From positions 1 to 28,273 of IMG/VR virus record IMGVR_UViG_3300029309_000259: DNA of 28,273 bases. One strand, given 5' to 3'. The DNA is from a virus. The notes beneath the pieces are model-generated. The model was not told the DNA's origin, did no database searches, and worked only from the letters and a program-made list of their open reading frames with translations. A program made the position numbers and the translations under genes. Every line of letters begins with the position of its first letter. Position 1 is the stretch's first letter. Positions 2,391-27,850 of the stretch are shown here, in pieces.

Positions 2391-2479
2391 AAGTTTAGGA
2401 TTAGAGATGTGTGTTCTTGATTCGCTGCCAGATCCATCACAAACAGACGAATAAAAAACAAAACTTTTAATCCCCCTAT

Positions 2480-2562
2480 ACTAGTAACTAGTATACTAGT
2501 ATATAACTAGTATAATATATTATAAATATATTATTAAACTAGTATACTAGTTTTATACTAGT
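2480..2562. repeat. Cluster of seven ACTAGT palindromes around an AT-only core
   Basis: ACTAGT starts at 2480, 2487, 2495, 2506, 2538, 2546 and 2557. The spacings 8 then 11 occur twice (2487-2495-2506 and 2538-2546-2557), so a three-site module is repeated after 51 bases, close to five helical turns. The gap between the modules (2512-2537) is entirely A and T and is itself nearly palindromic. The last copy contains the stop codon of the gene ending at 2558. This fits either an iteron/unwinding origin or an operator array for the neighbouring promoters. The rest of the 2312-2557 spacer holds the helicase promoter and one operator-like site, and no convincing gene. Confidence 0.6.
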
Positions 2563-2887
2563 GATACCTTGATGAATGGTTTTGAATTAATCTTTTTAAT
2601 TTTTCGCCTAAATGTCTGGCAATAATTCTTTTACTTATTAAAATTTCGTAAATAGATTTTCTTACATTTTCTGTATTAAGGTCTGCTAAGTCACAAACCT
2701 TTGAGAAATCATCTCCTCTAATCCAGTTGCCTATTCTAACTTTCTCTTTTGTCGTGCCTAGATAACTGTCAGAAATCGCTTGGCAGACTACAAACCTCCA
2801 TAGGCGTAACTCTGATGTGAGTTCTGGGTTGTTCCCTATCAATTCCCCAGAATATATGTTTCTGTTTAACTTGTCTGTCATTAACAT
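2558..2887 (-). CDS. Small helical phage protein (LWRxVxxQAI type), 109 aa
   Basis: The protein has a central block, roughly residues 27-90, with ELRLWRFVVCQAISD, then NWIRGDDFSKVCDLADL and VRKSIYEIL. I recognise this pattern from many phage genomes as a short, uncharacterised family placed among replication or packaging genes (aromatic W plus a C-x2-A-x-L-containing helix). No enzymatic residues are evident. The start at 2887 has AAGGAAAG a few bases upstream; ATG at 2881 is an alternative. The gene begins inside the RusA gene, and the 119 overlapping bases are read in two frames, both encoding conserved-looking protein. It is followed at once by the ACTAGT cluster. Confidence 0.75.
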   Translation of the reverse strand: MLMTDKLNRNIYSGELIGNNPELTSELRLWRFVVCQAISDSYLGTTKEKVRIGNWIRGDDFSKVCDLADLNTENVRKSIYEILISKRIIARHLGEKLKRLIQNHSSRYH

Positions 2888-3209: not shown

Positions 3210-4169
3210 ATGAAGATTACCAATAAATTTGGTTTGCCACAACCTTTTGTTGATTTTATAAAAAATGACAAATATAGCAAAGGTAGTGCAGATATATCAG
3301 TTACTTCGTTAATTGATAGTCCTAGGGTTTCTTTAATGAGACAAAAACACTCAGATGACATAGAGATAGACGCAGTTGACCAGATATGGTCGCTATTTGG
3401 AACTTCAGTTCATGCTATATTAGAAAGATCAGAAGATACAGTTTACTCAGAAACAGAAGCAAGATTATATGCCAATGTCAATGGTTGGAATTTATCTGGT
3501 GCAATAGACAGACAAGAAATAAACAAAGAAGATGGAAGTGTTAATTTAATTGATTACAAAGTAACTTCTGTTTGGTCTGTCATATTTGGTAAAATAGAAT
3601 GGGAAAGACAGTTAAACTGTTATGCCTATTTGTGTGAGCAAAACTACCATGAAGTTTTTACTCCATTCTCAAAAGAAAAGAAACAAGTCAATAAATTAAA
3701 TATTTGTGCAATCTTAAGAGATTGGAATAGAAGAGAAGTTGGTCAGAAAGATAATTATCCCAAGACACCAGTAGTCATGGTTGATATACCTTTATGGTCT
3801 CGTGAACAACGCAAAAAGTATGTTGAGGAAAGAATCTCGCTACATCAAGATGCTCAAATAAATTATGATCTTTATAATAAATTGCCCTTATGCTCAGATG
3901 AAGAGAGATGGAAAAAAGATGATAAATGGGCAGTTAGGAAGAAAGCTCAAAAAAGAGCATTAAGAGTTTTAGACACAAAGCTAGAAGCTATTGATTATGT
4001 TGAATGGCATAAAAAAACTAATACTGCATACATGCCTAAATATACTGGTGGTTATGAAATAGATTTTCGCCAAGGCGAATATAATAGGTGCAAGGGTAAC
4101 TATTGTTCCGTTGCAGATTTTTGTCAACAATACAACAAAGGAGAGGAAAATGGCAAAGAAGAAAACTAA
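3210..4169 (+). CDS. RecB/Cas4-like PD-(D/E)XK exonuclease
   Basis: Predicted DNA exonuclease of 319 residues. Motifs in order are GTSVHAILE (G64, H68, E72), SGAID (D100), LIDYK (D115, K117) and a QLNCYAYL helix (Q134 and Y138), the arrangement found in RecB-type and Cas4 nucleases. Near the C terminus CKGNYCSVADFC (C294, C299, C305) resembles the Cys cluster that holds an iron-sulphur centre in Cas4 and AddB. The usual first Cys near the N terminus is not evident, so cluster binding is uncertain. It is followed by a likely annealing protein, so together they would form a two-part phage recombination system in which ends are resected and then annealed. It leads the rightward operon. Confidence 0.85.
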   Translation: MKITNKFGLPQPFVDFIKNDKYSKGSADISVTSLIDSPRVSLMRQKHSDDIEIDAVDQIWSLFGTSVHAILERSEDTVYSETEARLYANVNGWNLSGAIDRQEINKEDGSVNLIDYKVTSVWSVIFGKIEWERQLNCYAYLCEQNYHEVFTPFSKEKKQVNKLNICAILRDWNRREVGQKDNYPKTPVVMVDIPLWSREQRKKYVEERISLHQDAQINYDLYNKLPLCSDEERWKKDDKWAVRKKAQKRALRVLDTKLEAIDYVEWHKKTNTAYMPKYTGGYEIDFRQGEYNRCKGNYCSVADFCQQYNKGEENGKEEN

Positions 4170-8400: not shown

Positions 8401-8402
8401 TT
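8383..8402 (-). promoter_or_regulatory. Near-palindromic site, copy 3, at the convergent junction
   Basis: On the minus strand the core AAGTTAACATTAACTT (8385-8400) is extended to perfect 9-base arms around CA. It overlaps the stop codon of the giant late gene. Read leftward it ends in TTTT and could form a weak A/T hairpin, so a terminator role is an alternative to an operator role. The plus strand has ATCCTAAACTT 13 bases before AAGTTAATG, the same pair of words as near 2371-2402 but with 11 more bases between them, one helical turn. Confidence 0.45.
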
Positions 8403-11400
8403 AACTAGCTTCTCTAAAACCAGCCGACCTCATGAGAATGAGCCCTCTTCTCATCAAATCGTTTATTCTGTCCCTTCTAATACGAATTAAGTTCTTTTTC
8501 ATTGTTTCGTCTATTCTAGGGTTTCTCTCTATCTCTTTAATCTGCCGTAACAATCTGTTTCTAGCGTTATCTACAGCTTTCAGTCTTGGAACTATAGCTA
8601 ATTGTTCTTTATTGTCTTCTAGTAACTCTTTTATCTTTTCCATATCACCTGACTTCCTAGCTATGTCATATCTAGCTAGTATCGTGAATAACGCTTTTCT
8701 ATTCTCTAAATAATTAGAAACATCTTCTCTTTCACTTGGAGATGCTACTACTTTCCTTGCAAATGGAATGGCTCTAGTTACTGATCCCTGAAAATCACCG
8801 TTGATAGCGTCATAAATATTAGCTGGTGTTTCAAGTGATCTTTGTACAAACCTACCAACACCACCAGTGCTATAATCAAACCAAAACTCCATAACATCTG
8901 GAGATAAATCTATAAATCCACTCTCTACCTCATCTCCTCCTGTAATCGTATTTAGCGTATTTGCAATACTTTTTGCTATTCCACTTGTGCTTGACCAATA
9001 TGCCTGACTATTTGGTGTAGGTCTTGATGCAAACTGAGGTGATTCTTTAAAGATTGGGTCTCCTTTGTAGTCTTCGTTGATAGCCACACTCACAAATGGG
9101 TCCAGAACTGTAGGTGCAGCCAAGTTATAGAAGTTATCAAATCCTCCAAATGGACTTAAACTTTCAAATGCAGTTCCAAATATAGTCCTACTTGCTTCGC
9201 CGGGTGTGTACTCGCCCCTTGCTGCGCGGGACATTGCCCTTCCTAAATTAACTGCTATGTTCATTCCATAAGCTAAAGGTATAGTAATAAACTTATCATC
9301 TGCTAAACCAAAGGTTGGTAATACAAAATTATGTTCTAGTATGTATCTTGGTAACTCATCATAATCTTTAATGCCATCTTCATCCTCATCTCCAGATAAC
9401 ATCGAGTTAAATGCATCTTGCATCAACCCGTACACAACTAGTCCAGCCCATACTTTTCTAACACGCTTTGATTTAACCGCAGCATTAATAAGCGCCATAG
9501 ACCCCTGCAATGACGCATTATAAAATAAATACCAAGAATTTAAGAATTGTTTTTGCTCTCCACCTTTTGCAAAATTTACAGTTATATTCCTTGCCGCTTG
9601 TGCTGCGCGGGCAGGAGTAACGCCACGCTTTACTAAAGCAGTGTAAGTAGCAACACGAACACCATTTTCAACTGCTGTGTTATAATCATCTAAAAATTTA
9701 CCTAATTTTTTAAACCCATTCTTTACAAGGCCAAGTTTGCCTTTCTTATTATTATCTGCAACATCACTTAATATTCCATTTATCCTATTCATTTGATCTT
9801 GCAAATCATTCATCTGATTAGTTGCGTTCTTACCACCTGCATTTACAAATTTTAAATATTCTTTTGCCCAAAACCCATCAGTGTCTCCATCACGAAGATT
9901 CTTTGCAATACCCTTTACAGCAGGAAGTGCGCCCTTTAGAACCTCAGACGTAAGTCCTTTTTCATCATATTGTTGAACATTTACACCGGCAGTTGCCAAA
10001 TCCCTAGCAAAGTTTGGTATAACAAATGATGGATTATAAGTTGTGTTAATATTAGATAAATATCTGTTCAACTTACCAAGGGCTCGCGTAAAAGAGCCCA
10101 CACTATCTGGTGTCATCATCCCTTTCATAGCTCTTGCTATTCTAGGGTCAGTAAATGTTACAAAAACATTTTGACCGTTCTCTCTTACAGTCAAAACCTT
10201 ATCTTTCATGTCTTGAGGAATATCATCTCTGTCAAAATATACATGACTAATATGTTGCATTTCTTTCTGTAAGTTAACATTAACTTCTGTCTCTCCGTCT
10301 GCAACGCCTCTAACAAGCTGTAAATATGATAAACCAACCTTATTTCTTTCAGAGTCTGCTATAGATTTATTGTTCTGAGCAAATAAAGATGCAACTATAT
10401 CACTAGCATAAAAATCTTGTAACTCGCCTTCTTCTGATCTTATTCTTCCTTTTGCTTTTCTATCTGGCTTTTTTAATGCACCAAATAAGTTTTGTATTAC
10501 AAAGTTTTCCTGCCTTACGTCACCTTCGTTATCTGCATTTATTTCTTGCTCAAAATCTAAATCACCTCTTAAAGGAACATAGTTCTCATATATTTCAGTA
10601 TATTCTTTTCCATCTTTATCAACAAATCTTTCAGGTATCAGTCCACCTTGCCTTCTTTCTTGATTTGTGTTTTGTACTATTTGTTGGGCAAAAGATATTA
10701 TGTTATTTAATTTTGTGCTTTCTGTATCTGATAAAGTTTTTGACCAATCTAAAATTCTATTAGCTTCGTTGGTATGCATTCCTGAAGCTATATCATTTCC
10801 TAGGTAATCGTTTCTTTCTTTCGCATGCGAAGCATAAAGGATGGCATCTGCTAATGCCATTTTTTTACTAGGATATCTGCCATCAGTAGCAGTTTTGTAA
10901 AAATTAGAAAGGTTTGAAAGTTCATTTAACTTATCTTGGCTTACATTTAAAGAGTCAATTACTTTAATCATAGGCTCAAAAAATTCTTTTTGTGACTTGT
11001 CTACTTTTGCACCGGCAACTCCATGAAACAACTCTTCTTGCATATAAGTATCTATAGAATCAGATATATTAAGACCTTTATCTCTCAAGCCATCCATCAA
11101 TGCACCTATCGGCAAAAATCTATCTTGTATTTGAATTAATAAATCTTGAGACTTTCTTCTTAATGTTTCTTCATCTACTCTACCTGCGGTAAAAACATAT
11201 CCTATTTTAGTTAAAATTTTTGATAGATTGTCGTATCTTATCTTTTGTCTTGTTTGGTTAATGCCTTCATTAACAACCTCACTTGTAGGAGTTGCTTGTT
11301 GATTCATGATTGGAGCACTAATACTAGAATAACTATATTTCTTTTCTGAAGGATAAGCTGTTCTTATAACATAAACATCTGACTTCATTGGAAGTGATGT

Positions 11401-14400
11401 TGGGTCTAGCGGCGTTCCTTTTGGCACAAATTTTAATGGCATAATTAACTGATAATTTCTTGGGCCATTATGTGGAGTTTTATTAAACTCTAATCTTATT
11501 CCTGTGCTAGGCGTATCAACAAGGTTAAATCCATTATTAGTGCCTTTTGTTTGTTGATAAAATGCCTTAGCTAAATTATCATAGAGCAGTTTGCGTAAAT
11601 TATTATATTTAAATATTTCTAATAATTCTTGCTCATGACTTTTTCCTGTCTCATCTCTGATAGCAGTAATATGTTTTTCTCCATATCCACTGTAATCGTT
11701 TTCTGCAACTTTCTCATGATCTCCCTCTACATATAAAACAGGTATTGTCCTACCTCTAGCTTGAATCATTCCATAAATATATTTCCTAGCATTGCCTTCA
11801 TCCGCATATATATTGCTCTTTAGTTCTTGAGGTATCGGTATCATTGAGAATTGTTGTTCCTCAATGGTTTCGTTAATAGCTCTTATCTCTTCTTCTGTAG
11901 ATTCGCTTAGAAGATCATGACCTTCTAATTCTTCTGTGGTGTACTCTCTTTTTTGGTGTCCAACATTTTTTTCAGGCTCTCCAGTACTTCTAACAGCTTG
12001 TTGTCCGGTATCTGGTTTACCAAGGCGTCTGTCTCTGTCTGCCGCGGGAAGTGCTTGTCCAATGGTTTCTTCATCTCTACCTCTCTTTCTTAAAAATTCT
12101 ACAGCCGCATCTACATAGTCATTGTCAGATCCTTGGCCCGGAGCAACACCTATGCTTTTAAATAAACGTTTTTCTCCATACCAAAATACAGCTTGAGCAT
12201 CTGCTATCGTAATAGTCCTATTGCTTCTTCTTGGTGTGTTATTATACTCGCTTACAACTTGTCTTATAATACTTCTAAGCGTTTCTCTTTCTCTGCCTCC
12301 TCTTGGTGACTCTGCTAATTGAGGATTAATATTTCTTGCTAAAGATGCAGTAGCCAATATAAATTCTGATTTCTCAGGAAGACCATCTTGACCTAATTTT
12401 GAAAAGTCTCTTTGATAAACTCTATCTACAGTCAAAGAAATAGCATCAACATCATCTGGATTTTTTAACAAGTCAACACCATTTTCCTCAATTGCTTGGG
12501 ACAATCTTGACTTATCATCATCTGTGCCAGATTCTATAACTTTTTGAACAGCCTCTTTAACTCTGTTTCTTGCTTTAACCATAGTTTTTTCTGTTGGTAT
12601 AATAAATGGATGACCTGTAATTCTATTTACAAATCTCATAAACCATCTATCCATTGTTAGATAAGAAAAATCTCCAGCTAAATTTTGATAAAAAGAACCA
12701 ATTTTACTTCCAAATATGAATGAAGCAGGAACTTCAGTGCCAACATTCTCAGTTGTAATTTTTGCTTTTAATTGTTTTAAAATAGGTAAATTATTTATTT
12801 CACCTACTGTAGTTTTTGTATCTAAGAATGTCTTTATCTCAGTATCAGACATCTTCATATTGCTTTTCATTAAGTTATATACTTTAAAAGACTTAATCAT
12901 TCCTGATGCTTGTTTGCCGTATCCTTTTTCTAAAAGAAGACCAGTTCTTTTCCAGTTTTCAAATTGCTCTGCTAAAGCTTGGTTCTGTTCTTTTACAGCT
13001 GCTCCGTTAGAAGATATTGCTATAATTAAATTAAACACAGACTCTGCATTCTTATCTGTTTTGATCTCTGGGTATTCTAAAGCATATAATTTCTTAGCTT
13101 GATCAAATGTCTCTTTGTACCATCCTATAGCAGAATCATCTGCATCAACATATGCATCTAACTCCATCTTCATGGCTTCTACTATAAGCTTTCTATCTTC
13201 TGGGTCATTTATATTAAGAGTTACACCACCTCTTTCCGCTTGAATCTTTTTTATTGCCTCAACCATTTTAACACTGCCAATTTTAGCAATCTGTTCATAT
13301 TGACCTTTATTTTCGCCTTCAGTTATAAATTTGTCTAATGCAGTTAAATCTTTTGGATTTATTCCTTTAATTGATGAATATAAAAATTCTTCTTTAGGAG
13401 CAAATGTTGGATTTTTAGCCATTACAAGCGGACCCACTTGTATGACTCTCTCAGCAGACATCACTGGTTGTGTAGTTGTTCTGTCATAAAAATATGAATG
13501 TCTCTCTGGGTCAAAGCCTACTTGCACAAAGGATGGGTCGTTTAAAGCGGATTGAGCCTCTGTAAAAGCTGTTTCTGGAGATACCTTTTGTAGTTCACCC
13601 TCTATTGTAGCAAAAGGCCCCTTTTCTGCGCCCTGAGCTATTCTAAACCCAATTCTTTGAGCGCCCTCTGATGGTCTTAATGTAGCATTATTTACTACCG
13701 CTACGCTTTCATGTGACAAAACTTTATTTGATGCATCATGAATAGTAGGAACCCATACGCCTTTACCAGTATATGCTGGTATATCTAGTCTTAATTTTAC
13801 TGTAGTTCCATCAGGTATATCATTTATTTTATTTAATTTTTCTACTTTATTTTTTGCTAAAGCACCTTTCATTTGCTCTACTGTTGCAGGCTCTGGCACT
13901 GTAGTATATGGAACAATAGGCTTTACTTTATTAACTAATTTATCATAAGTATCGTAATCTATTTCTCCATTTGCAAGCTTCTTTGCGGCCTCTTGTAAGT
14001 CATCAACTCTCTTTGTTACATCTTTAAATGTTTGCTTTATTCTTTCAATATTACCTTTTTCTGGCTCTATATAACCAGCAACAATACCAGCAGTACTATA
14101 TTTTTTTTCGCTTGTTATATTCTGTTGTCTTTCTCTTCTTCCTATTTGTCTTTCTATATCTGTTGTGCCTATGTCTTTAAATATGTCTCCAGCACTATTA
14201 AATCCAACCTCTTTATGTGCTGTAAATAAACCTTTAATAAAGCTAAGAATTTTTTGAAATATTGTTTTAGTCTTAGGTTTAAGCTCAAGTTTACCATCAG
14301 CAAAATCACGATACATTTCTGCAACAGCTTCCTCTAATTTTTTTGAGTCAGTAAGCTTTTCATTCATTCTTACCGATCTATCTAAATAAGTATACTTTCT

Positions 14401-16458
14401 TGTAACAGGCTTTCCATCTATCATCATGACGTATTTGGTTTCTTTTGCAGCATCTGTTAAAGTTTTCCATTCTGCTTCGGTAAAAACACCCATCTCTTTC
14501 AATGCGTGAATTATCTCATGATTCATAACTGAACCAAGTCTTTGCTGAAGATCTGCTTCTGATAGACTTGGGTCATATATTTCCATAGCTAAAGCTATTG
14601 TTTTATTACCAAATACACCTTCGTTTACTTCTCCTGATGCAACTTGTTGTTGTGGGTCAAGACCATCTTTAGTTACAATATTGCGAAAGTCTAAAGCAAT
14701 ATCACCCAAACCAATCGCTGTTAACTTTTCTCTTAAAGCCTTTTGAACTTTAAATTCTTTAGATTTATATTCATCTGTCTTTATATTTGCATTGTTAAAG
14801 GCTGTTTTAGCTATGATAGGGGGTACTATTTGGCTTGCCTTGACTGATTCTGTGCCAAGCTTCTTTTTCGCCTCTCCTGAAAGTGTGCGCGCTTGTTTAG
14901 ATATGCCATCATATGCCAATGTTAAGTCTGTAATTTGACCTTCTAAATCAGAAACATCTTCTTTTGTTTCTAGTTTTTGTTTTCTTTGCTTATGAAGAGC
15001 ATCCATTTCTTTCATTATAGTTTTTGCTCTAGCTTTTAACTGTTCTGCTTTTAAACCTATATCTTGAGCCATTGTTGTGGTTGATACAAATTTGCCTTTT
15101 TTCTTTTTTATAACTCCATTTTGTAAAAGCTTATCTCTAATTCTGTTTATCTCAGATTGTTTAATTGTTTTTTGTTGTTTTGTTTTAAGAGCCTTTCTTG
15201 CAGAGCCCTGATTAAACACACCCTCTAACTTTGTTTTATCTTTAACTTTATTATAATTTACATCAGCAGGATCTGCGTCTAAATCCCTTGCTCTATTAAG
15301 AGCAACATCTAAATCATCTTGACTTAATGTTTCATCTGTAACAACAACATCTGGTCTGTTGTCCATGACTTCTTGCTTTATATGATCTGGTAACAAAGAT
15401 AGAGTTAAAAACTTCGCTTCTGGATCAGATGAATCTTCTATAACCTTCCCTTGTGTTGTGGGTGATGGCAAACCTCTGTTCAAAAAATTTTGTGCATTTT
15501 GATTCATAACTCCAGCAGATAAACCAAGAGTTCTTTGATCCTGATCTAGTTGTGTAGTTTTAGAGTTATCATCTTCTTTGTTCTTGTCTCCACCAATAAT
15601 ATTACCTGTACTAGAAACTGTACCACCAATAAGACCAGCAGCCGCAGCTACTTCCTTGTATTCGTTTATCGCCTCTTCACTTGTTATAGATTTACCAGCT
15701 TGATATCTTTCTAATACTTGTTGGCCTATTTCTGTAGGGACCTCAGTTACAATACCCTTACCAACACCTTTTACACCTCTTGTAAATATTCCTCCACCAG
15801 ATAAAGCTTTACCTGTAAATCCACTTACTAAAAATCTATCTGCTATAAAATCTAAAGCAGCCTGTGGAAGAGCGGTAATAAAAGCGGCTCCTTCAGATAT
15901 CTCAAATCTATTACCAGCTTGAACTTCTTCTTTCTGAGCCTCTCTGTTACCGCCGTAAAAAAACGGTAAATTAACACCAATACCACCTATTATAGAGCCC
16001 GGAACACCACCAACAAGAAATCCTGCACCAGCACCAGCTAATGTGCTTCCTAACTGCGGAACTTGTTCTCCTAATGTTGATGCTGCCCAATCAAAAAAGC
16101 TACCTGTGTCCTTTATATCATCTAATCTTTTTGCATATTCTGCATCTGACTCAAGTTCTTTTCTATTATTTTCTACAATTTCAGTTCCGTAATCTTTGAC
16201 ATCTTCAAGACCTGTAACTTTACCTACACCCTCTATCGCAGAGCCATAAAGCATTTGAATATTATCTATGCCTCTGCCTATACCTTTTGTAAAAAGATTA
16301 CCATCATCTCCGGGAGTTTCTTCTGGTAAATCTTGTTTACCAATGTTTGCCATATAATTAGATATAGCAAGAGATTCTTCTTCTGTTGGAGTATCTCCGT
16401 CTATTTCAAATGGGTATTCTTGACCATCTATTTGGCTTATGGCTCTGTATAAACCCAT
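8401..16458 (-). CDS. Giant polyvalent internal virion protein (2685 aa)
   Basis: Very large multi-domain protein, probably packed in the virion and ejected with the DNA. Residues about 137-170 are glycine-rich and hydrophobic (membrane segment). A metallopeptidase-like region has HEIIH (H647, E648, H651) and LEEAVAE (E714) as a possible third ligand. A polyvalent-protein domain with QVGFDPERHSYFYDR begins near 979; another with GSKIGSFYQNLAGD and DRWFMR lies near 1250-1285. Residues 1538-1709 carry GYGEKHITAIRDETG, like phage barnase/EndoU-type toxin nucleases. A C-terminal LPD38-like part starts near NPSFVIPNFARDL (about 2139). SEKKYS occurs twice and EEQQFS once at domain junctions. It is last in the late operon and shares a TAATG with the preceding gene. 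The domain calls are by recall of patterns. Confidence 0.88.
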   Translation of the reverse strand: MGLYRAISQIDGQEYPFEIDGDTPTEEESLAISNYMANIGKQDLPEETPGDDGNLFTKGIGRGIDNIQMLYGSAIEGVGKVTGLEDVKDYGTEIVENNRKELESDAEYAKRLDDIKDTGSFFDWAASTLGEQVPQLGSTLAGAGAGFLVGGVPGSIIGGIGVNLPFFYGGNREAQKEEVQAGNRFEISEGAAFITALPQAALDFIADRFLVSGFTGKALSGGGIFTRGVKGVGKGIVTEVPTEIGQQVLERYQAGKSITSEEAINEYKEVAAAAGLIGGTVSSTGNIIGGDKNKEDDNSKTTQLDQDQRTLGLSAGVMNQNAQNFLNRGLPSPTTQGKVIEDSSDPEAKFLTLSLLPDHIKQEVMDNRPDVVVTDETLSQDDLDVALNRARDLDADPADVNYNKVKDKTKLEGVFNQGSARKALKTKQQKTIKQSEINRIRDKLLQNGVIKKKKGKFVSTTTMAQDIGLKAEQLKARAKTIMKEMDALHKQRKQKLETKEDVSDLEGQITDLTLAYDGISKQARTLSGEAKKKLGTESVKASQIVPPIIAKTAFNNANIKTDEYKSKEFKVQKALREKLTAIGLGDIALDFRNIVTKDGLDPQQQVASGEVNEGVFGNKTIALAMEIYDPSLSEADLQQRLGSVMNHEIIHALKEMGVFTEAEWKTLTDAAKETKYVMMIDGKPVTRKYTYLDRSVRMNEKLTDSKKLEEAVAEMYRDFADGKLELKPKTKTIFQKILSFIKGLFTAHKEVGFNSAGDIFKDIGTTDIERQIGRRERQQNITSEKKYSTAGIVAGYIEPEKGNIERIKQTFKDVTKRVDDLQEAAKKLANGEIDYDTYDKLVNKVKPIVPYTTVPEPATVEQMKGALAKNKVEKLNKINDIPDGTTVKLRLDIPAYTGKGVWVPTIHDASNKVLSHESVAVVNNATLRPSEGAQRIGFRIAQGAEKGPFATIEGELQKVSPETAFTEAQSALNDPSFVQVGFDPERHSYFYDRTTTQPVMSAERVIQVGPLVMAKNPTFAPKEEFLYSSIKGINPKDLTALDKFITEGENKGQYEQIAKIGSVKMVEAIKKIQAERGGVTLNINDPEDRKLIVEAMKMELDAYVDADDSAIGWYKETFDQAKKLYALEYPEIKTDKNAESVFNLIIAISSNGAAVKEQNQALAEQFENWKRTGLLLEKGYGKQASGMIKSFKVYNLMKSNMKMSDTEIKTFLDTKTTVGEINNLPILKQLKAKITTENVGTEVPASFIFGSKIGSFYQNLAGDFSYLTMDRWFMRFVNRITGHPFIIPTEKTMVKARNRVKEAVQKVIESGTDDDKSRLSQAIEENGVDLLKNPDDVDAISLTVDRVYQRDFSKLGQDGLPEKSEFILATASLARNINPQLAESPRGGRERETLRSIIRQVVSEYNNTPRRSNRTITIADAQAVFWYGEKRLFKSIGVAPGQGSDNDYVDAAVEFLRKRGRDEETIGQALPAADRDRRLGKPDTGQQAVRSTGEPEKNVGHQKREYTTEELEGHDLLSESTEEEIRAINETIEEQQFSMIPIPQELKSNIYADEGNARKYIYGMIQARGRTIPVLYVEGDHEKVAENDYSGYGEKHITAIRDETGKSHEQELLEIFKYNNLRKLLYDNLAKAFYQQTKGTNNGFNLVDTPSTGIRLEFNKTPHNGPRNYQLIMPLKFVPKGTPLDPTSLPMKSDVYVIRTAYPSEKKYSYSSISAPIMNQQATPTSEVVNEGINQTRQKIRYDNLSKILTKIGYVFTAGRVDEETLRRKSQDLLIQIQDRFLPIGALMDGLRDKGLNISDSIDTYMQEELFHGVAGAKVDKSQKEFFEPMIKVIDSLNVSQDKLNELSNLSNFYKTATDGRYPSKKMALADAILYASHAKERNDYLGNDIASGMHTNEANRILDWSKTLSDTESTKLNNIISFAQQIVQNTNQERRQGGLIPERFVDKDGKEYTEIYENYVPLRGDLDFEQEINADNEGDVRQENFVIQNLFGALKKPDRKAKGRIRSEEGELQDFYASDIVASLFAQNNKSIADSERNKVGLSYLQLVRGVADGETEVNVNLQKEMQHISHVYFDRDDIPQDMKDKVLTVRENGQNVFVTFTDPRIARAMKGMMTPDSVGSFTRALGKLNRYLSNINTTYNPSFVIPNFARDLATAGVNVQQYDEKGLTSEVLKGALPAVKGIAKNLRDGDTDGFWAKEYLKFVNAGGKNATNQMNDLQDQMNRINGILSDVADNNKKGKLGLVKNGFKKLGKFLDDYNTAVENGVRVATYTALVKRGVTPARAAQAARNITVNFAKGGEQKQFLNSWYLFYNASLQGSMALINAAVKSKRVRKVWAGLVVYGLMQDAFNSMLSGDEDEDGIKDYDELPRYILEHNFVLPTFGLADDKFITIPLAYGMNIAVNLGRAMSRAARGEYTPGEASRTIFGTAFESLSPFGGFDNFYNLAAPTVLDPFVSVAINEDYKGDPIFKESPQFASRPTPNSQAYWSSTSGIAKSIANTLNTITGGDEVESGFIDLSPDVMEFWFDYSTGGVGRFVQRSLETPANIYDAINGDFQGSVTRAIPFARKVVASPSEREDVSNYLENRKALFTILARYDIARKSGDMEKIKELLEDNKEQLAIVPRLKAVDNARNRLLRQIKEIERNPRIDETMKKNLIRIRRDRINDLMRRGLILMRSAGFREAS
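10271..10286 (+). promoter_or_regulatory. Near-palindromic site, copy 4, inside the giant gene
   Basis: An exact copy of AAGTTAACATTAACTT lies within the coding sequence of the 2685-residue protein. It is not next to a visible promoter. Its exact identity to the copies at 2373 and 8385 makes chance unlikely, but an intragenic site could be a roadblock, a protein-nucleation site or coincidence from codon use (the protein reads EVNVNL here). Confidence 0.35.
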
Positions 16459-25899: not shown

Positions 25900-26817
25900 C
25901 TAAAATTTAACTGTTTCTGTAAATGAAAAATTCGTACCATTAAATATTCCCAAAGCAAAATCTACACTATCTCCTAAAGAGAGACCTGTTGAAACATTTC
26001 CTCCAGATAAAGCTGCACTTCCATCGCCAGCGTTCCAGTTAATTGTCATTTTATTTGCGGAAGTTTTTTTATCTATAATGACATATTGTCCAGCTACTAA
26101 ATTATTAGTTTGTACATTTATTTGTTGAGTATTACTAGAAACTATAACTTGCTGATATACTGATGTAGCTTTAGTTGCAATTACATCTAAAGCGCCGGAG
26201 ATTGTTTGAACTGATTTTACTTCAACTAAATTTGAATTAATGTAAGTACTTAAATCAGTTACAGCAGCTTGTACCATTGTGCCATCATCATTTACAATAA
26301 GTCTATCTGCGTCAACTATCGTTGTTGAAGTTGCTGAATTTCCTCCATCAACTATATTTAACTCTGCTGCTGTAGAGTTTACTTTTGTTCCACCAAAGCT
26401 AAATCCATCTAACAAGTCAGTTACTTTAGCACCAGATCCTTCGCCATCTGCAAAAATTAATCCTTTTGATCCAGTTGGTATAGATACATTTCCACCAGAT
26501 CCTTGTGTAAAAATTGCAGTTTGACCAGAATTATTGTGTACAAAATACATTTTATCTTGATTATTAGGTGATATTGTAATTGTATTTGTTCCTGATGGTG
26601 ATCCACCTAATATTAAAACTTTATTACCTCCATCTGACAAAACTCCATCAGTGGTTGTTAAGGTGTGCGTTGTACCAGATAATGTAATAGTAGCAACGCC
26701 ATTAATTGCTCTGTCAAAAATATCAAAGTTTAAATTAGTTGTTGTTCCCCAAGTTCCGGCTTGTTCACCAGAACCTATTTTTTCTACTCCTAAATTTAAT
26801 GTGTAAGAACTTGGCAT
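25900..26817 (-). CDS. Tail fibre protein (YTLNLGVEKIGxGEQxGTWG type), 305 aa
   Basis: The first 60 residues (SYTLNLGVEKIGSGEQAGTW, NLNFDIFDRAINGVATI) are a widely shared N-terminal module of marine phage tail fibres. The middle contains GTKVNSTAAELNIVDGGN, the TAAELNIxDG linker motif familiar from other phage fibres. The C-terminal third (about 200-305) is beta-rich and likely exposed. AGAGGGA precedes the ATG, and the gene lies 10 bases after the repeat-fibre gene. Receptor contact is likely, but which of the three fibre-like proteins binds the host cannot be told. Confidence 0.75.
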   Translation of the reverse strand: MPSSYTLNLGVEKIGSGEQAGTWGTTTNLNFDIFDRAINGVATITLSGTTHTLTTTDGVLSDGGNKVLILGGSPSGTNTITISPNNQDKMYFVHNNSGQTAIFTQGSGGNVSIPTGSKGLIFADGEGSGAKVTDLLDGFSFGGTKVNSTAAELNIVDGGNSATSTTIVDADRLIVNDDGTMVQAAVTDLSTYINSNLVEVKSVQTISGALDVIATKATSVYQQVIVSSNTQQINVQTNNLVAGQYVIIDKKTSANKMTINWNAGDGSAALSGGNVSTGLSLGDSVDFALGIFNGTNFSFTETVKF

Positions 26818-26827
26818 ATATCCCTCT

Positions 26828-27850
26828 TTAATTTATTTCTGTATAAGTTTCTGCACCAGTTGGCGTTATTTCTGTCCATGTCTCCGTACCACTTGGAGTT
26901 ATTGTTACATATGCTTCAACCCCACCATCACTTGCTATTATATCTTCATATAATAATTCACCTAAAGTAGACTTTAAGAAAGCTAACTCTTGGCTAGATA
27001 TTCCTACTGCTATCTTAATACTATTTGCTGTTTGTGTAAACTCTCCACTTTGATCACTTACACCTAATCTTAATCTCACACAACTAGAAGTTTCTGTAAA
27101 ATCGCCTGATATTTCAGCAGAAGAACTAACTATTTTTGTTCCAATACTTGTTTCTGTAAACTCTGCACTTTGATCGCTTGTGCCTACAGCTACTTTTACT
27201 GCATCAGTGGTCTTTGTAAAATCACCACTAATGTCAGCAACACCAGCTAGTATTCCAACACCAATCGCAGTCTTAGATGAAATACCGCTCATGTCAGCAG
27301 AAGTTATTGCTATTTTAATTCCATCTGTTGTTTTAGTAAAATCGCCACTTATATCAGCAGAGCTTACGCCTATCTTAATACCATCTGTTGTCTGTGTGTT
27401 AATAAAGCTTATGTCTGCATCACCAGAAAATGTTGCATTACCTACACTTGTTTGTGTGTTGTTAAAGCTAATATCTGCCGAAGTAATAGCTATCTTTATG
27501 CCTTCAGTAGTCTTTGAAAAGATTGCACTTTGATCTGATGAAGATGTTCTAGTCCTTACTCCTACAGAAGTTTGTGTATTATTTGACAGAAACTCTATTG
27601 CAGAAGTTCCTGCTGCGATCTTTATGGCACCTGTATCATCAACAAAGTTACCACTTATATCTGCAATACCTGAGAGTATACCCACACCGACAGATTGCTT
27701 AGAAGCAATGCCAGACATCTCAGCAGAGCTTACACCTATTTTTATAGCAACAGAAGTTTCTGTAAAATTAAAACTTTGAGTTGAAACACCAAAAAATACA
27801 GAGCCGAAAGCACTAAAAGGCTGTGCTGCAAAGGCGTTAAACCCTAACAT
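26828..27850 (-). CDS. Repeat-built fibre protein with thirteen 20-residue repeats (340 aa)
   Basis: After a 25-residue hydrophobic, Phe/Ala-rich start (MLGFNAFAAQPFSAFG) come thirteen tandem units, residues 26-287, each 20 residues long except the fourth (22). The consensus is S-G-D-F-T-x-T-T-D-G-I-K-I-A-x-x-S-A-D-I, two short strands joined by turns, which suggests a beta-solenoid or triple-beta fibre shaft. The C terminus (287-340) is different and ends with YVTITPSGTETWTEI and TPTGAETYTEI, two related short repeats that are common at the ends of marine phage tail proteins. It shares a TAATG with the 31-residue gene. The unit count may vary between relatives. Confidence 0.78.
   Translation of the reverse strand: MLGFNAFAAQPFSAFGSVFFGVSTQSFNFTETSVAIKIGVSSAEMSGIASKQSVGVGILSGIADISGNFVDDTGAIKIAAGTSAIEFLSNNTQTSVGVRTRTSSSDQSAIFSKTTEGIKIAITSADISFNNTQTSVGNATFSGDADISFINTQTTDGIKIGVSSADISGDFTKTTDGIKIAITSADMSGISSKTAIGVGILAGVADISGDFTKTTDAVKVAVGTSDQSAEFTETSIGTKIVSSSAEISGDFTETSSCVRLRLGVSDQSGEFTQTANSIKIAVGISSQELAFLKSTLGELLYEDIIASDGGVEAYVTITPSGTETWTEITPTGAETYTEIN
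26990..27775 (-). repeat. Thirteen tandem repeats of 60 bases inside the fibre gene
   Basis: The 20-residue protein period corresponds to a 60-base DNA period, with one unit of 66 bases. Units are related but rarely identical: for example unit 8 (SGDFTKTTDGIKIAITSADM) and unit 5 (SAIFSKTTEGIKIAITSADI) share the block GIKIAITSAD, and units 2 and 9 share GVGIL...ADI. The mixed relatedness suggests repeated duplication and recombination over time and not a fresh expansion. Such arrays can change length by slippage or unequal exchange. Confidence 0.8.

Follow-up and report, generated by a model that had tools for sequence, protein, structure and literature searches.

Fibre shafts built of sequence repeats are already known, and in the triple beta-spiral the unit is a strand-turn-strand with alternating hydrophobic residues and a Gly or Pro turn; for the marine podoviruses of the HTVC023P type, to our knowledge, host attachment is poorly understood. 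The adenovirus fibre shaft, as described in PMC7248032, consists of short repeats whose number is fixed for each type, placed between an N-terminal anchor and a distal end. HTVC023P-type podoviruses are described in PMC9599517 as widespread, and their genomes are reported there to encode type VIII secretion together with repeat fibres of CsgA/B. The gene considered here, P0001, encodes a 340-residue protein in a viral window, i.e. the whole 28,273-nucleotide stretch that was analysed, which corresponds to bases 1-28273 of a 28,545-base IMG/VR record; P0001 has a single match in that record (Table 1). P0001 resembles the adenovirus triple beta-spiral in having short repeats, fixed in number, that would make up a shaft between a presumed anchor and a presumed distal end; it differs in its period of 20 residues, as opposed to a unit of 15, and shows no sequence match to the adenovirus shaft.

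Table 1. Features of P0001, its neighbours and two further regions, in window coordinates
Feature	Position	Strand	Protein residues	Remarks
P0001, repeat protein gene	26828..27850	(-)	340 aa	ORF read from sequence
N-terminal segment	27776..27850	(-)	aa 1-25	begins MLGFNAFAAQPFSAFG
13-unit tandem array	26990..27775	(-)	aa 26-287	repeat analysis
Unit 2	27656..27715	(-)		variant type SGIASKQSVGVGILSGIADI, resembles unit 9
Unit 4	27530..27595	(-)	aa 86-107	sole 22-residue unit
Unit 9	27230..27289	(-)		second copy of variant type SGIASKQSVGVGILSGIADI
Short C-terminus	26831-26989	(-)		
Conserved post-array segment	26918..26989	(-)	aa 288-311	begins ELAFLKSTLGELLYED
C-terminal aromatic tail	26831..26917	(-)	aa 312-340	11-residue repeats [YW]TEITPSGTE
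P0002, next gene	25900..26817	(-)	305 aa	phrog_31104 match over the first 180 aa
P0003	24714..25892	(-)	392 aa	uncharacterised
P0004	22366..24714	(-)	782 aa	virion structural protein phrog_3287 (E 1.5e-65)
LPD38 ORF	8401-16458	(-)	2685 aa	large polyvalent protein associated domain (E 1.9e-36); ~28% of record
AT-rich tract	2477-2567			short tandem tract TATACTAG (TRF scores 51, 67)

The protein is laid out in three regions: an N-terminal segment that is a candidate virion anchor, the array, and a conserved stretch followed by a C-terminal tail of period 11 (z 5.5 over the last 37 residues, with a period-33 tract in the DNA). The array itself, twelve 20-residue units plus a single longer one of 22 residues, bears out what a sequence-only reading had described, since amino acid identity at a lag of 20 residues reaches 83/320, against a mean of 27.5 and a maximum of 43 in 2000 composition shuffles; lags 40 and 60 are high too (91/300 and 78/280), and the DNA has a period of 60. 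The unit pattern put forward in that reading likewise agrees with the consensus over the 13 units and 15 aligned relatives, S-[GF]-x-F-T-[KQE]-T-[ST]-x-G-[IV]-[KR]-I-A-[VA]-G-S-[AS]-[DE]-[IQM], although SGDFTKTTDGIKIA is literal only in unit 8 and the remaining units deviate from it. Two additional units flanking the array (aa 6-25 and aa 288-307) are plausible by eye, but a score test gives them P = 0.08 and 0.15; they are thus unsupported as units, and the count stays at 13.

In the same alignment of 13 units and 15 relatives, hydrophobic residues occupy positions 20/4 and 11/13/15, glycine positions 10 and 16, and G/S positions 16-17, the turn being T-x-T-[ST]-x-G. Each unit reads as strand-turn-strand; the alternating-hydrophobic pattern is present in the sequence, while the confidence of the structural models is low. 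The units are old, pairwise DNA identity among them being 72% at most, and the failure of Tandem Repeats Finder to report the array fits this low identity. Units 2 and 9 are alike at 14/20 residues with 63% DNA identity, a sign of an old internal duplication.

P0001 falls into no curated family of Pfam, PHROGs or NCBIfam and clearly matches no PDB sequence, in agreement with the earlier impression that the repeat belongs to no named family. The best sub-threshold matches were to an Opacity porin (E 0.017, below the Pfam cut-off) and to phrog_23524 (E 0.013), and the best PDB match, an agglutinin receptor (E 0.005), was dropped in the profile search. No match was obtained when P0001 and a short relative were compared by tblastn with 50,697 GenBank phage records, a result to which the low-complexity filter may contribute, and GenBank phages with analogous genes were located via neighbour genes instead. 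As to a host or prophage origin, 0/38 and 0/93 pattern matches in GTDB genomes encode a relative, so that these patterns revealed no cellular copy, and no description of the repeat family was found in the open-access literature under the terms used. Absent from the libraries searched and from the literature found, the repeat itself appears to be new, as a putative variant of the fibre shaft.

What the sequence-only reading missed is that proteins of the P0001 kind form a set widespread among marine phages. Using the best 80 of 184 matches of P0001 to viral contigs, and the best 80 of 229 matches of a profile of short members, we pooled ORFs from the fetched loci and, together with P0001, obtained 98 distinct full-length proteins of the 20-residue type among the matches listed in these searches. 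An M[LF]G start is kept in 89/98 of them; the other nine, attributable to a start-picking artefact or a broken 5' end, were left out of statements about clades. Units were counted with the conserved post-array segment as a 'cap' landmark: in 88 proteins the N-terminus lies 110-113 (75 proteins), 190 (2) or 289/291 (11) residues from the cap, whereas the other 10 comprise seven with wrong or missing starts (values 71, 72 and 87) and three without a cap match, two of which, L009 and L229, are assigned by length to the long and the short class, respectively. The steps of 80 and ~100 residues equal 4 and 5 whole units, so that related phages carry 4, 8 or 13 units, the count being constant within each clade. 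Long and short members are clearly homologous as judged from their sequence profiles (hhalign probability 99.95%), and P0001 itself has the M[LF]G N-terminus, the 20-residue units, the cap and the 11-residue aromatic C-terminal repeats of the family.

With unit counts constant, the lowest pairwise identities are 36% among short members (median 59%) and 54% among long ones (median 74%), indicating that unit number outlasts sequence. In 13/14 relatives, moreover, units are closer to their positional counterpart (mean 0.63-0.91) than to other units (0.35-0.39), and the 251-aa L018, with fewer units, behaves likewise (0.60 versus 0.36), although a 'uniquely best' positional match drops to 7/13 in the diverged 13-unit L009 and L015 and to 4/7 in L018. 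Recent copying is not the main process. The proposal that the array is a source of length variation consequently holds between clades, which differ by whole units, but not within them, where the count is constant and the units are not homogenised; with a quantised, clade-fixed unit number, P0001 behaves as a rod of set length rather than as a rapidly varying tract. Two kinds of C-terminus occur on nearly the same array, the short one of P0001 and a longer version in which VVSRRRALNLNVATF precedes the 11-residue repeats (L007, L010 and L015 were compared), possibly as a result of module exchange.

The P0001 gene is a member of a tail-fibre gene cluster. When the window genes were compared by tblastn with 141 loci, all of them fetched with P0001 or its relatives (its presence in 141/141 is therefore expected), P0002 lay directly downstream of the P0001 homologue in 133/141, and the same gene order continued with P0003 in 63/141 and P0004 in 112/141 loci, followed, where the locus extends that far, by a holin (23 loci) and a lysozyme (9 loci). 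The N-terminal domain of P0002 is shared with CRP901_gp50, the annotated tail fibre of Roseobacter phage CRP-901 (PMC10149686). Relatives of P0004 are annotated 'stabilization protein' in several phages, and P0004 is similar to PDB 9nwi_Y, a chain present six times in 9nwi (E 8.9e-13). Just upstream of the repeat gene, L011 encodes a tail fibre-like protein of 1244 aa and, matching phrog_4912 (E 6e-12), a tail fibre assembly protein, and the genes upstream in L086 include members of the tail fibre families phrog_4492 and phrog_18673. Elsewhere in the window, the large ORF with the LPD38 match is probably a virion-internal multi-domain protein, and the AT-rich tract, near the gap between divergent gene blocks, is a possible regulatory or replication site.

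To avoid selecting on the repeats, loci were also fetched by neighbour genes, retaining 39/80 matches of P0002 (those starting at its first residues) and 80/80 of HTVC023P gp69. Six of these 119 loci, mostly at contig edges, lack an ORF of 60 aa or more upstream, leaving 113 that have one (36/39 and 77/80, respectively); as the matches come from related phages and some contigs recur, these 113 are not independent events. Periodicity at z>4 and a lag of 20-22 was found in 78/113 upstream ORFs (22/36 and 56/77), compared with 6/185 other ORFs, taken from every fourth locus, that pass the same threshold (period 20), and 34 of the 35 failing ORFs share, by eye, the aromatic C-terminal repeats. In other marine phages, too, the slot before the P0002-type gene is occupied by repeat proteins of period 20 or 22. 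The single exception, L306, has in this slot, upstream of the match at 1262, an unrelated 370-aa ORF (MKVTILGAGNAGCMSLLHFYY...) that is tryptophan-halogenase-like by eye. The 452-aa repeat protein encoded in L328 upstream of the match at 4001 has at its N-terminus a domain (M..YTYTVTVASGNLYGGGTGNVFYLDG...CYVHGIGMGG), cupredoxin-like by eye, that recurs in L329, L330, L336, L340, L344, L345 and L356.

Among cultured phages the closest counterpart is gp68 of Pelagibacter phage HTVC023P (QGZ17697.1; L081:4988-5668, annotated from a TTG start), which has 68 relatives on viral contigs and is matched by no PHROG or NCBIfam model. Like P0001, it lies directly before a phrog_31104-type gene, consists of tandem units, ends in aromatic repeats and changes length by whole units, and its N-terminus LLGITAISQSPIASLGG resembles that of P0001; unlike P0001, whose lag is 20 and not 22, it has a 22-residue unit with a V[ST]VTG..L motif, a combination absent from P0001. 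The distances between N- and C-terminal landmarks in this family (51 distinct proteins with both ends) are 194-198 (35), 214-215 (2), 260-261 (13) and 274 (1), the main step of 66 residues corresponding to three units of 22. A comparison of the two families by hhalign gave a C-terminal match with a probability of 31% (E 5e-4) and 9% in the other comparison, and detected no similarity beyond the C-terminus; the case for homology consists of position, architecture and this weak profile match, for which reason we call the 22-residue family analogous or distantly related.

Repeat proteins of different sequence occupy the same tail gene region in three further phages (HTVC027P gp68, DSL-LC04 WJZ48131.1 and CRP-901 gp53). 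The first two have a W-rich N-terminus and directly precede a gene that is phrog_31104-like by eye, whereas the CRP-901 gene is found three genes away from, and not adjacent to, the one for the tail fibre. All four named-phage counterparts are annotated 'hypothetical protein' and none as a fibre. The periodicity scan of cultured phages considered ATG starts only, so that it misses the TTG-started HTVC023P gp68, which was read directly; within that scope it found no period-20 or period-22 protein in HTVC010P. It also flagged a few ORFs at lags 17 and 18; at lag 22 it picked out an L081 ORF on the reverse strand and, in L365, one that is wrong-frame or overlapping.

A rod-like tail appendage gives the best fit to the gene position, the protein architecture, the strand-turn-strand units and the conserved whole-number lengths, and the alternatives have to be weighed against it. 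The first suggestion of the sequence-only reading, a beta-solenoid formed by a single chain in which each coil is one 20-residue unit, would account for the regular period, the beta pattern and the turns rich in G and S/T; known solenoids usually have coils of ~18-20 residues. AlphaFold2 is usually confident about monomeric solenoids given an alignment, yet the monomer models reached pLDDT 45 and pTM 0.37 for P0001 (15 sequences; two strands in most units, at low confidence) and pLDDT 53 and pTM 0.22 for a 159-aa relative (67 aligned sequences; no DSSP strands); with both alignments shallow this counts weakly against a solenoid, which gained no support from the predictions and which we consider unlikely. 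Monomer predictions often fail for intertwined trimers, and a disordered Ser/Thr-rich protein would give equally poor models. The low pLDDT throughout both models is indeed what a flexible, mostly disordered Ser/Thr-rich linker or fibre-assembly helper, with repeats that serve spacing only, would produce; strong hydrophobic alternation and position-specific conservation of units are, however, unexpected of a plain spacer, and we rank this reading below the solenoid.

Between those two in our estimation stands the view that P0001 is a virion decoration, a head fibre or an internal virion protein and not a part of the tail: L011 encodes, a few genes upstream, a 'head protein' of phrog_240 and a virion structural protein of phrog_2941, but the genes immediately adjacent are of the fibre, fibre-assembly and P0004 types. 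Least of all do we expect a phage-encoded curli-like amyloid. The CsgA/B proteins of HTVC023P-type phages are likewise short beta repeats from a related phage group (PMC9599517), and relatives of P0001 have short tandem beta repeats of ~22 residues; P0001 nevertheless lacks a Q/N ladder and any curlin family match, and its gene is located among tail genes. A Pfam scan of the 15 window proteins found neither CsgG nor CsgF. The curlin pattern is S-x5-Q-x-G-x2-N-x-A-x3-Q, and it is absent from P0001, where the position expected to hold Q is T in 85% of cells; the curli identity therefore fails on motif, family match and tail-gene context.

Taking together the repeats, the architecture, the tail-fibre synteny, the quantised and conserved unit number and the positional conservation of units, we lean toward P0001 being structural, as part of the short tail of a marine podovirus, namely a rod-like, beta-rich, homo-oligomeric appendage. 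The 'fibre shaft' of the sequence-only reading stands insofar as it fits the tail-fibre cluster, the strand-turn-strand pattern and the clade-fixed whole-unit lengths; presence in the virion, the oligomeric state, the fold and the anchor and tip roles are what we infer. Such an appendage would be a thin rod of beta-rich 20-residue units, each formed by a strand, a TxT[ST]xG turn, a second strand and a short loop, and the chain would probably assemble into a homo-oligomer, a trimer by analogy with other fibre shafts. The conserved N-terminal segment may hold P0001 to the tail or to its P0002-type fibre-adaptor neighbour, the aromatic 11-residue repeats at the C-terminus would make up the far end or tip, and the number of units would set the length of the rod, a length kept within each clade.

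More tentatively, P0001 and its counterparts could represent a new trimeric beta-repeat shaft, with units of 20 or 22 residues unlike the 15-residue triple beta-spiral, that gives many short-tailed ocean phages a tail appendage of fixed length and whose unit number acts as a clade-specific ruler; if this is true, unit number would set how far a tip or adaptor protein stands off the tail. The repeat protein in any case occurs more widely and keeps more regular lengths than a first reading of the sequence could show. As a recurrent product of the tail-fibre cluster with quantised lengths it is a concrete target, and its 4-, 8- and 13-unit members, built on one plan, offer a natural series of rods in which to study how repeat proteins set length.
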